Below are positions 19,885-63,290 of a DNA stretch of 64,000 nt, in pieces. Made by a program: the position numbers and the translations under genes. Every line of letters starts with the position of its first letter. The first letter of the stretch is position 1. The stretch comes from Tetradesmus obliquus (Eukaryota; Chlorophyta; Chlorophyceae; Sphaeropleales; Scenedesmaceae): contig CP126197.1 in the NCBI GenBank assembly GCA_030272155.1, positions 1,054,001 through 1,118,000 of the forward strand, written 5' to 3'. The notes below the pieces were generated by a model that saw nothing but the letters and a program-made list of their open reading frames with translations, searched no databases and was not told where the DNA came from.

Positions 19885-20360
19885 CCAGCTCGCAGCGCCT
19901 GCCTTGCAGGAAGCTGTCCAGCTTTGTGTAGTAGTCCAGCATGGTGGTGTGGTCCAGGTGGCATGCCAGCTCAAACCAAACCACCACAAACCACAGTTGG
20001 CCCTTACTAAGGCTCTACTAGTAGTAGTCCAGCTGGCAGCGCCTGCCCTGCAGGAAGGCGTCCAGCTTTTGCATGCAGGTCCAGCATAGTAGTATTGCCC
20101 AGGTGGCATGCCAGCTCAAACCAAACCACCCTCAACCACCCATCAATGATCCAGCTTGCAGCGCCTGCCTTGCAGGAACATGTCCAGCTCTGTTTACAAG
20201 CGTGGTGCGGTCTAGGTGGCATGCCAGCTCAAACCAAACCACCACAAACCACGCCACGCCACGCAAGGACCATTGGTAGTCCAGCTCGCAGCGCCGCCCT
20301 TCAGGAACGCGCCCAGCTTTTGCATGCAGGTCCAGCATGTTGGTGTGTCCAGGTGGCATG
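19885..20360 (-). repeat. four downstream copies of the CDC73 last exon and its 3' flank
   Basis: The anchor CCAGCTCGCAGCGCCTGCC (or a variant) recurs at about 19885, 20029, 20151 and 20281; the real exon has it at 20409 (spacings 144, 122, 130, 128). On the minus strand each copy reads variants of LDYYTKLDSFLQGRRCELDY. Copies also share an adjoining block (TCAAACCAAACCACC) absent from the true exon, so exon and flank were duplicated together and then amplified. Confidence 0.9.
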
Positions 20361-20400
20361 CCAGCTGTGACCCAACCACCAGAGACCACTCTGCGGACCA

Positions 20401-20549
20401 TTAGTAATCCAGCTCGCAGCGCCTGCCCTGCAGGAACGCGTCCAGCTTTGTGTAGAAGTCCAGCATGGTGGTGTGGTCTAGGTGGCGCCCCGTGCGCCTC
20501 AGCGGCAGCTTCAGTACCTTCCAGCCCTCGACAGTCTCCGGTACCTGAC

Positions 20550-20619
<70 letters not shown>

Positions 20620-63000: not shown

Positions 63001-63196
63001 AGGCTCTCTGGCGTATGTTGGTGGTGACCAGGCCGTGATGGACATCCCAAAAGTGGGCCCTATCTTTGGCACAGGGGCTGGCATCATGTGGAAGGGCTAT
63101 GAGACCTTTGCGCAGATCAGCCTGCGCAACCAGCTGCTGGTCATCAGTGACTGGGTGCGCACCAAGCTCTTCGGGCGCGACATCTCGCGCGTGTAA
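53769..63196 (+). CDS. type II NAD(P)H dehydrogenase with EF-hand (NDB-like)
   Basis: Fourteen exons join in phase to 612 residues: 53769-53936, 54460-54605, 55080-55125, 56100-56186, 57299-57427, 57903-58034, 58442-58552, 59349-59469, 59668-59848, 60196-60334, 60702-60808, 61638-61797, 62303-62406 and 62989-63196. Exon 1 is rich in Arg, Ala and Ser, with no acidic residue in its first 40, typical of an organellar transit peptide. The FAD-binding motif [10 protein letters not shown] is near residues 84-93, the NAD(P)H motif ICGGGPTG near 250-257 and FGDAS near 394-398. One canonical EF-hand loop, [12 protein letters not shown], occupies 417-428. The C-terminus FGRDISRV matches the plant NDB ending. 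The enzyme oxidises NAD(P)H and reduces quinone without proton pumping; calcium control is inferred from the EF-hand. Mitochondrial versus plastid location cannot be decided. Confidence 0.94.
56254..56690 (+). repeat. five downstream donor-side copies of dehydrogenase exon 4
   Basis: The true exon end and five copies share CGCAACCTGGTGCTGGG and a GGCAAG or GGGAAG before GTGAG. Anchors at 56163 (true), 56254, 56356, 56458, 56560 and 56659 give spacings of 91, 102, 102, 102 and 99. Copies still read [10 protein letters not shown] or [10 protein letters not shown]. The 102-base units are almost identical, so recent. Confidence 0.95.
56969..57240 (+). repeat. three upstream acceptor copies of dehydrogenase exon 5
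   Basis: Copies start near 56969, 57076 and 57204, the true exon at 57299. Each follows a CTG tract and CCAG acceptor and reads [12 protein letters not shown] or close variants, then diverges. Confidence 0.95.
57480..57537 (+). repeat. diverged donor-side copy of dehydrogenase exon 5
   Basis: The stretch reads [17 protein letters not shown] before GTGAG, recalling [16 protein letters not shown] before the true donor at 57428. Confidence 0.7.
57645..57850 (+). repeat. two upstream acceptor copies of dehydrogenase exon 6
   Basis: Copies start at 57645 and 57780, the true exon at 57903 (spacings 135, 123). Each reads [14 protein letters not shown] (Thr-Leu in the first), NHCQFLTAP, then CTGCTG-rich intron. 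Confidence 0.95.
58104..58160 (+). repeat. downstream donor-side copy of dehydrogenase exon 6
   Basis: Reads [16 protein letters not shown] and GTGAGT, 119 bases after the true donor; nearly identical at DNA level. Confidence 0.95.
58639..59021 (+). repeat. three downstream donor-side copies of dehydrogenase exon 7
   Basis: Copies end near 58687, 58893 and 59022. Each retains [16 protein letters not shown] or variants before GTGCGG, a lost donor (AAGATG) or GTAATG. Only the true exon (58442-58552) has the GGGPTG motif. Confidence 0.93.
59222..59280 (+). repeat. upstream acceptor copy of dehydrogenase exon 8
   Basis: Starts at 59222 after CTGCAG; reads [19 protein letters not shown], then diverges. 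The true exon starts 127 bases later. Confidence 0.93.
59903..59972 (+). repeat. downstream donor-side copy of dehydrogenase exon 9
   Basis: Reads [19 protein letters not shown] and a GTGTGG donor, 119 bases after the true exon end at 59848. Confidence 0.93.
60404..60600 (+). repeat. copies of dehydrogenase exons 10 (3' edge) and 11 (5' edge)
   Basis: 60404-60454 copies the exon 10 end ([15 protein letters not shown] before GTGCGG) plus about 60 intron bases. 60553-60600 copies the exon 11 start ([12 protein letters not shown]) with a GCAG acceptor. Both halves of the EF-hand are thus duplicated inside the intron that splits it. Confidence 0.92.
61084..61590 (+). repeat. four upstream acceptor copies of dehydrogenase exon 12
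   Basis: Copies start at 61084, 61227, 61367 and 61507, the true exon at 61638 (spacings 143, 140, 140, 131). Each reads [12 protein letters not shown] (or its frame-shifted equivalent) and a decayed MQTVEET, then similar intron with TTTGCCCAAA. Confidence 0.95.
61967..62058 (+). repeat. downstream donor-side copy of dehydrogenase exon 12
   Basis: A 90-base, almost identical copy reads [18 protein letters not shown] and [11 protein letters not shown] before GTGGG, 260 bases after the true donor. Confidence 0.95.
62693..62930 (+). repeat. two upstream acceptor copies of dehydrogenase exon 14
   Basis: Copies start at 62693 and 62883, the true exon at 62989. They read [11 protein letters not shown] and [11 protein letters not shown], then diverge. 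The preceding TGCTTGAACCC intron words recur. Confidence 0.93.
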
Positions 63197-63243
63197 GAGG
63201 CTTGTGTGTGAGTGGCTTGCAGCAGGCTGCAGCAGCGGTGAAG

Positions 63244-63290
63244 GCTGGGTGTGCACCAAACTCTTTGGGCGCGACATCTCGCGCGTGTGA
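63244..63290 (+). repeat. downstream copy of the dehydrogenase C-terminus
   Basis: Reads [17 protein letters not shown] residues and TGA about 95 bases beyond the true stop, a terminal-exon copy like those of CDC73 and FAS1 gene 4. Confidence 0.92.

Follow-up and report, generated by a model that had tools for sequence, protein, structure and literature searches.

We have found that introns in a stretch of the Tetradesmus obliquus genome carry tandem partial copies of the edges of neighbouring exons, splice site included, in many unrelated genes. The stretch, called the window below, is 64,000 nucleotides long (C7:1054001-1118000, in a genome of 104.7 Mb and 17 contigs) and holds dozens of local direct repeats, typically at offsets of ~90-300 bp, recovered with Tandem Repeats Finder (TRF) and self-alignment. 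With a confidence only a little above even, we favour the explanation that tandem duplication acts genome-wide and is filtered by splicing, and that pairs of an exon and its copy decay slowly. A process directed at exon edges is the main rival.

Local repetition of this kind is dense and almost entirely in direct orientation. Cover and orientation were measured in a systematic sample of 16 stretches of 6 kb, each at a fixed position, on 16 of the 17 chromosomes, with simple repeats (period <=12) masked before pairs were counted; this short-period mask took up ~11% of the sample. Among local pairs (offset 30-600) 98 were direct and one was inverted, and direct pairs covered 16.9% of bases, or 11.6% without one satellite stretch. 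The corresponding cover was 0.8% in block-shuffled sequence and 0.9% in Escherichia coli sequence (260 kb, which served solely as a control for repeat cover), yardsticks that are shuffled and bacterial, not eukaryotic. Cover was similar across predicted classes, at 13.7% in introns, 18.3% in exons and 16.5% between genes. Pair identity in self-alignments ranged from 67.8 to 100% (median 86.8), and 37 of 510 pairs reached at least 97%. The satellite stretch, L068 (C16:1000001-1006000), is mostly a tandem satellite with a period of ~274 bp.

A local pair was present in 14 of the 20 stretches of a larger systematic set (used for pair presence and junction counts), in 4 of 5 tRNA-synthetase-type loci and in 15 of 22 other conserved-domain loci, that is, in 33 of 47 sampled loci. 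Profile searches of the whole genome gave the same picture. On C13:3960174-3960317 (minus strand) one exon matches PF00133 profile positions 143-188, and truncated matches to positions 143-176 and 144-176 lie upstream; at C16:4173109-4173294 a match to PF00118 positions 40-101 is accompanied upstream by partial matches to positions 38-71 and 42-69. These hits show the pattern independently of any gene model. The density and wide range of identities described in a first-pass annotation of the window are thus borne out, as are the direct orientation, which it had proposed to count, and the occurrence beyond the window, housekeeping genes included.

The layout of the copies is strongly one-sided. 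Exons and introns were labelled with a small exon-intron model trained on profile hits from the same genome, whose predicted introns have mostly GTGNG donors and GCAG acceptors; the available text of PMC5966456 reports, for this species, a GC content of 57% and introns that average 462 bp and number 7.8 per gene, and that of PMC7955037 a haploid genome of ~103.4 Mb in a related strain. As a sanity check, since 22 of the 35 PF00133 hits were already in the starting training set, the model covered more than half of 32 of these hits in the correct frame, and two of the remaining three are intronic copies. It labels some copies as exons, which inflates the exon/exon and exon-edge classes. Statistics on edges require at least 20 or 24 exon columns per copy and, where pooled, draw on 329 kb: the window, 25 fetched stretches, 22 conserved-domain loci and seven carriers of a dispersed repeat (L002-L008), the last kept in the pool and left out of the conserved-gene set, including its count of profile-supported exons.

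In the pooled set, 105 of 182 combinations of exon, edge and side cross exactly one edge. The canonical arrangement, with acceptor-side copies upstream and donor-side copies downstream, was found in 94 of these 105 (47 of each kind), and in the same proportion the live copy was the one attached to the exon body; some of the 11 others are short copies that the gene finder called exons. The polarity reported by the first-pass annotation is therefore real. It is no clue to a special mechanism, as it is expected from any tandem duplication that leaves the gene intact. Once a segment straddling an edge has been duplicated, the only copy able to stay live is the one still attached to the remainder of the exon, and ordinary tandem duplication in a gene that still works is bound to give a one-sided layout. 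The polarity is thus evidence for tandem duplication and not for a splice-guided mechanism.

Within the window, TRF and self-alignment recovered the arrays, mostly with periods of 90-260, at the genes for which they had been described, and more beyond them. Pfam matches identify the CDC73, Fasciclin (FAS1) and DENN genes, and the dehydrogenase matches rotenone-insensitive (type II) NADH dehydrogenases. The names SGNH-type and Cys-rich are those of the first-pass annotation and stand unconfirmed: five open frames at 28.1-38.0 kb have no Pfam match at E 0.01. Copies of a terminal exon beyond the stop codon and of a first exon before the start, also described earlier, were read at CDC73 and near 35.6 kb, respectively. 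In the following list, head copies carry the acceptor-side edge of an exon and tail copies the donor-side edge.

8984..9344, plus strand: FAS1, two head copies upstream of live exon 9279-9422 (self-alignment, edge classification).
9832..9986, plus strand: FAS1, head copy upstream of live exon 9949-10161 (self-alignment, edge classification).
19879..20486, minus strand: CDC73, terminal-exon copies beyond the stop codon, live exon 20401-20544 (TRF, self-alignment, sequence reading).
20793..21002, minus strand: CDC73, tail copy with donor, downstream of exon 20935-21045; the gene finder called the copy an exon.
22266..22933, minus strand: CDC73, tail copies of exon 22854-23293 (FLEEGKFVP edge; self-alignment).
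23211..24032, minus strand: CDC73, three head copies (PAGPAFM..SGR) upstream of exon 22854-23293, period ~239 (TRF, self-alignment).
24424..24757, minus strand: CDC73, two head copies (CAPGANFKPV..DK) upstream of exon 24303-24482, period 130 (TRF, self-alignment).
31579..32642, plus strand: SGNH-type gene, about five head copies (GCAG/GTGACGCCGCACC, the slash marking the junction), period ~199 (TRF, self-alignment).
35234..35663, plus strand: Cys-rich gene, two first-exon copies before a live start near 35604, where there is no gene model; period ~160.
45701..46335, minus strand: DENN/SCD1-like gene, head copy of exon 45581-45801 and tail copy of exon 46278-46446 (self-alignment).
56153..56694, plus strand: dehydrogenase, exon 56100-56186 followed by five tail copies that carry the PVRNLVLGK edge and donor, at a period of 91-102.
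56966..57341, plus strand: dehydrogenase, head copies upstream of live exon 57299-57427 (TRF, self-alignment).
57637..58167, plus strand: dehydrogenase, live exon 57903-58046 (donor position approximate), with two head copies before it and one tail-end copy after it.
58497..59025, plus strand: dehydrogenase, three tail copies downstream of live exon 58442-58552 (self-alignment).
59205..59403, plus strand: dehydrogenase, head copy upstream of live exon 59349-59469 (self-alignment).
59787..59969, plus strand: dehydrogenase, tail copy downstream of live exon 59668-59848 (self-alignment).
60287..60517, plus strand: dehydrogenase, tail copy downstream of live exon 60196-60334 (TRF, self-alignment).
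61064..62060, plus strand: dehydrogenase, live exon 61638-61797 preceded by four head copies with acceptor and followed by one tail copy.
62636..63018, plus strand: dehydrogenase, head copy upstream of last exon 62989-63196, offset ~296-300.

The dehydrogenase gene thus holds 11 arrays within 56153-63018 by self-alignment, and its edge GTGCTGGGCAAG/GTGAGG is present six times, with small changes, from exon 56100-56186 onward. Head copies in CDC73 read CCGCAG/TGTGCACCCGGGGCC. In the SGNH-type gene the live exon is taken to start near 32605, a place with neither gene model nor Pfam match. The window also contains other repeats. A 15/30-bp minisatellite (GAACAGCGCTTGCAG) lies in the FAS1 region at 12037-12254, and (GCA)n/(CTG)n triplet runs are dense, also within predicted exons (20550-20618, 25036-25178, 25280-25319 and many others). 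A dispersed repeat of ~165 bp at ~30645-30813, found with ~90-94% identity at a minimum of 39 other sites on both strands (40 of 731 candidates scored), is unrelated to the local arrays.

We propose that short tandem duplication would be frequent in this genome, both within genes and between them, with units mostly of ~90-300 bp. Units lying wholly within a coding exon would mostly be purged, and a unit crossing an edge would be tolerated when it brings enough intron with it. The copy joined to the exon body would remain live, and the outer partial copy would keep the splice site of its edge without a partner site; lacking that partner, it would not be seen as an exon and would be removed with the intron. 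Recognition across the exon is thus the probable reason that copies are, as we suspect, not spliced in. The dead copy would then decay neutrally while the live exon is held constant, and because of this constancy an exon-copy pair would be recognizable for longer than an intron-only or intergenic pair. Such slower decay may be the main cause of the excess of arrays seen at exon edges.

The composition of the units is consistent with this filter. For nearest copies at offsets <=300, the period minus its exon part was at least 40 bp at all 194 edges measured (100 acceptor-side, 94 donor-side), and the exon share of the unit exceeded 0.7 in none of the 72 cases whose exon equals or exceeds the unit in length. 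We read this minimum of other sequence in every unit as the splicing filter, a copy too near the live site not being tolerated. The exon part itself ranged from 24 bp (the cutoff) to 133 bp. The unit is thus not cut at one fixed place, and the spread of its exon share, not fixed at the junction, speaks against a process directed at edges.

The copies look dead. Across 31 full-unit pairs (aligned over at least 85% of the offset, several of them sharing an array) introns diverged from introns by 15.3%, and exons from their copies by 6.6% at first, 7.4% at second and 16.6% at third codon positions, a neutral-like pattern that is expected if the copy drifts beside an exon in which silent changes alone are allowed. 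In alignments of exons with their copies, indels were not multiples of three in 70 of 78 cases and, in a second count, 54 of 61; frameshifts or stops were found in 21 of 75 and 26 of 110 intron-labelled copies (two flank classes), the remainder having neither. At the inner ends of copies no enrichment of partner splice sites was detected, with a donor score >=3 in 15 of 66 head copies (a fraction of 0.195 in random intron) and an acceptor score >=3 in 23 of 70 tail copies (0.348 in random intron). Additionally, the predicted dehydrogenase aligns in four blocks with solved NADH dehydrogenases (5yjy and relatives), which match each of five repeated segments once and leave the other copies in gaps. 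Among these solved rotenone-insensitive enzymes is, we presume, yeast Ndi1.

Whether exon edges are preferred beyond what such decay would produce is the question on which the main rival turns. We regard as possible, and as distinctly less probable than the splicing-filtered account, that exon borders, perhaps of well-expressed genes, are hot spots of tandem duplication, or that repair or gene conversion, priming at sequence that resembles a splice site, repeatedly copies edges into the adjacent intron. When labels were shifted along the pooled set, 173 of 979 junctions were spanned versus 134.9 expected, and exon/intron pairs numbered 251 versus 219.6. In the 20 systematic stretches the corresponding figures were 25 of 261 versus 22.7, which counts against an edge-directed process, and 44 versus 36.0. 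By gene-finder labels, 147 of 188 arrays held an exon edge (104.6 shifted) and 15 were intron-only (47.0 shifted). The 59 exon stretches supported by profiles, from which six of the 35 PF00133 hits (five copies and one with stops) and one PF00009 copy hit had been removed by hand, were touched by 29 of 91 arrays against 17.5 shifted, a value reached by none of 1000 shifts, and this favours edge-directed formation. For arrays of at least 90% identity on these exons the result was 12 of 46 against 8.8 (reached by 128 of 1000 shifts), which argues the other way.

Label shifts judge finished arrays and not events, and we prefer event simulations, which mostly give a larger excess. A simulation in which duplication is uniform and passes a splicing filter, constrained exons decay more slowly and detection is as in the real data placed ~21-30% of detected events at edges in the systematic stretches and 28-36% at other loci (a run without simple-repeat masking), or 23% in a separate pooled run that kept the masking. 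With confident exons, and exon-only arrays counted with edges, the observed share was 25 of 42 in the systematic stretches and 140 of 184 in the whole set. The shares by kind of array given here and below exclude exon-only arrays (13 of the partial class and seven at 95% identity). Full-unit arrays in the systematic stretches lay at edges in 3 of 13 cases, and recent full units in 1 of 7, both against an expected 19-28%. These values fit uniform placement and speak against the edge-directed rival.

Several results weigh against the splicing-filtered account. Elsewhere, meaning the window, conserved-gene and dispersed-repeat loci with counts obtained by subtraction, full-unit arrays were at edges in 29 of 39 cases (27-33% expected) and recent full units in 6 of 8 (29-37%). 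Pairs of at least 95% identity, of any length, were at edges in 5 of 10 systematic cases (20-28%) and 13 of 20 elsewhere (27-37%), and partial pairs in 19 of 35 (26-39%) and 99 of 124 (36-46%), respectively. Differences at silent sites are also more frequent than drift would give. Pooled exon-copy differences were 6.9, 6.6 and 20.1% at the three codon positions, the third being about three times the others, and copy-copy differences were 7.4, 8.0 and 21.8%. This excess persists after splitting by base and CpG, two-fold sites carry fewer non-silent changes than four-fold sites would suggest, and even in broken-frame copies the position-3 ratio was 2.7-2.9 (bootstrap 1.8-4.6 and 2.2-3.7) where drift predicts ~2. 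Finally, the intron flank lacked homology in 41 of 112 nearest intron-labelled copies (71 were homologous), with AG or GT kept in 37 of the 41, and exon parts seem to outlast spacers more than twofold.

Thus, for whole units the unbiased sample fits uniform formation and its excess lies among partial and very similar short pairs, while at the other loci, window included, the edge excess is present throughout and at all ages. The class of at least 95% identity shifts the balance slightly from survivorship towards a formation bias at exon edges. The earlier claim that duplications are anchored on splice junctions may therefore hold: against the simulated uniform process the excess is strong in the window and selected loci, and in the small systematic sample it is absent for full-unit arrays but seen in the other classes. 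The silent-site excess and the splice dinucleotides retained without flanking intron homology likewise suit edge-directed copying. Against it, spacer homology fades continuously with offsets unchanged: among 130 nearest copies, 46 had flank homology at p<.01, 31 at.01-.05, 16 at.05-.2 and 37 at >=.2. We treat copies without flank homology as older members of one series, though their exon parts look younger than the spacers. A division into two copy types, exon-only and whole-unit, was considered and rejected, as the more sensitive flank test shows one fading series. One array at L053 5000-5900 runs opposite to the usual trend: in its 239-bp unit, which is coding-like and rich in (AGC)n, flanks are 97% alike and the predicted exon part 87%.

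Some of the silent excess may arise because some copies are live exons, and gene conversion with the exon or copying from a diverged allele may add silent differences. A diverged allele as template is compatible with the excess, but a few very similar copies with unlike flanks speak against that source, which we regard as possible but less likely. A bolder combination, which we consider rather unlikely, is that exon borders are preferred sites of tandem copying and that the live exon refreshes its dead copies by gene conversion, so that each exon would be surrounded by partial copies that are continually renewed and whose splice sites are competent. If this were true, splice-site choice must rest on recognition across the whole exon.

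It is improbable that the copies are functional, as alternative edges, mini-exons or decoy sites under selection. Their differences are biased to the third position, and in an IleRS-type gene on C13 (L050 4480-6000, minus strand) most differences among six copies of a single exon head are silent, and a further tail copy lies downstream. AG was intact in 56 of 70 nearest intron-labelled acceptor-side copies and GT in 48 of 61 donor-side copies, and the copy's site scored above the lower quartile of live sites in 31 of 70 and 35 of 61, respectively. As about half of the copies exceed that quartile, local consensus alone would not silence them. However, frame-breaking indels dominate, inner ends are not enriched in partner sites, and AG and GT are, over the two flank classes together, retained about as often as any two bases of the exon part. 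Copy sites are also weaker than live ones (acceptors lower in 37, higher in 14 and equal in 5; donors 28, 5 and 15), a comparison with some circularity, since the same matrix had been used to call the live sites. Purifying selection on copies as the main account, suggested by the third-position bias, was rejected after the indels, the inner ends and the calibration on full units. In L050, joining one of the head copies to the tail copy would, on our reading, give an in-frame, split counterpart of the complete exon.

Creation of introns by tandem duplication of exon sequence bearing AGGT (the Rogers model) had been invoked as a route in the first-pass annotation, and as a general source we find it very unlikely. 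The units contain AG-GT borders, and single cases are possible: similarity of intron start to the head of the following exon, or of intron end to the tail of the preceding one, reached 60% identity in two introns at each end, and one exon head is identical to its intron start over all 24 compared bases. Yet these are 2 of 389 introns per end where control rates predict 0.4 and 1.1, neither comparison has a median different from that of the control, and the majority of copies span an edge that was already there. Nor do the data support the suggestion that the process mainly enlarges introns, since introns with an exon-edge copy were not longer (median 245 bp, 147 introns) than others (283 bp, 318 introns; p=0.09), in a comparison where copies miscalled as exons split some introns. 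An assembly or collapsed-allele artefact is the least credible account, as copies differ by ~13% at the median, occur in most sampled loci and show lawful polarity and codon-position patterns.

Intronic minisatellites are made of head-to-tail units with graded divergence. The arrays described here share both features, and differ in that the unit includes a live coding piece and a splice site in many unrelated genes. We found no description of the exon-edge copy pattern among the titles and abstract openings listed in searches of open-access literature. The nearest precedent found is the potato RdRp gene, where, in the available text of PMC4974935, a tandem duplicate of the upstream intron-exon structure includes branch site, polypyrimidine tract and 3' splice site. 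Both involve a tandem duplicate of intron-exon structure with its 3' splice site; the potato case is a single recent one in which the duplicate made a new intron and an inserted exon, whereas here there are many per gene and the partial copy is apparently left in the old intron. Rogers-type gain and ATP2A1 (Hellsten et al. 2011), as cited in that text, share tandem duplication within a gene with splicing restoring the message, but in those cases the duplicated unit is exon sequence, whose AGGT provides the new intron with both its ends, a signature at most rare here. Introners, as presented in the available text of PMC9860276, likewise add intron sequence to many genes of a lineage. They copy themselves into many genes, whereas each of the present copies lies close to the exon edge from which it came.

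These findings carry a warning for annotation, as gene finders will call dead copies exons, just as our own did here. If the pattern is genome-wide, it would represent a route for gene and genome change without transposons. It would also supply a very large number of natural experiments, in each of which a splice site, with 30-100 bp of its exon, has a duplicate close by that is apparently ignored, so that exon versus intron definition, and the rules of distance and strength in splice-site choice, become directly testable.

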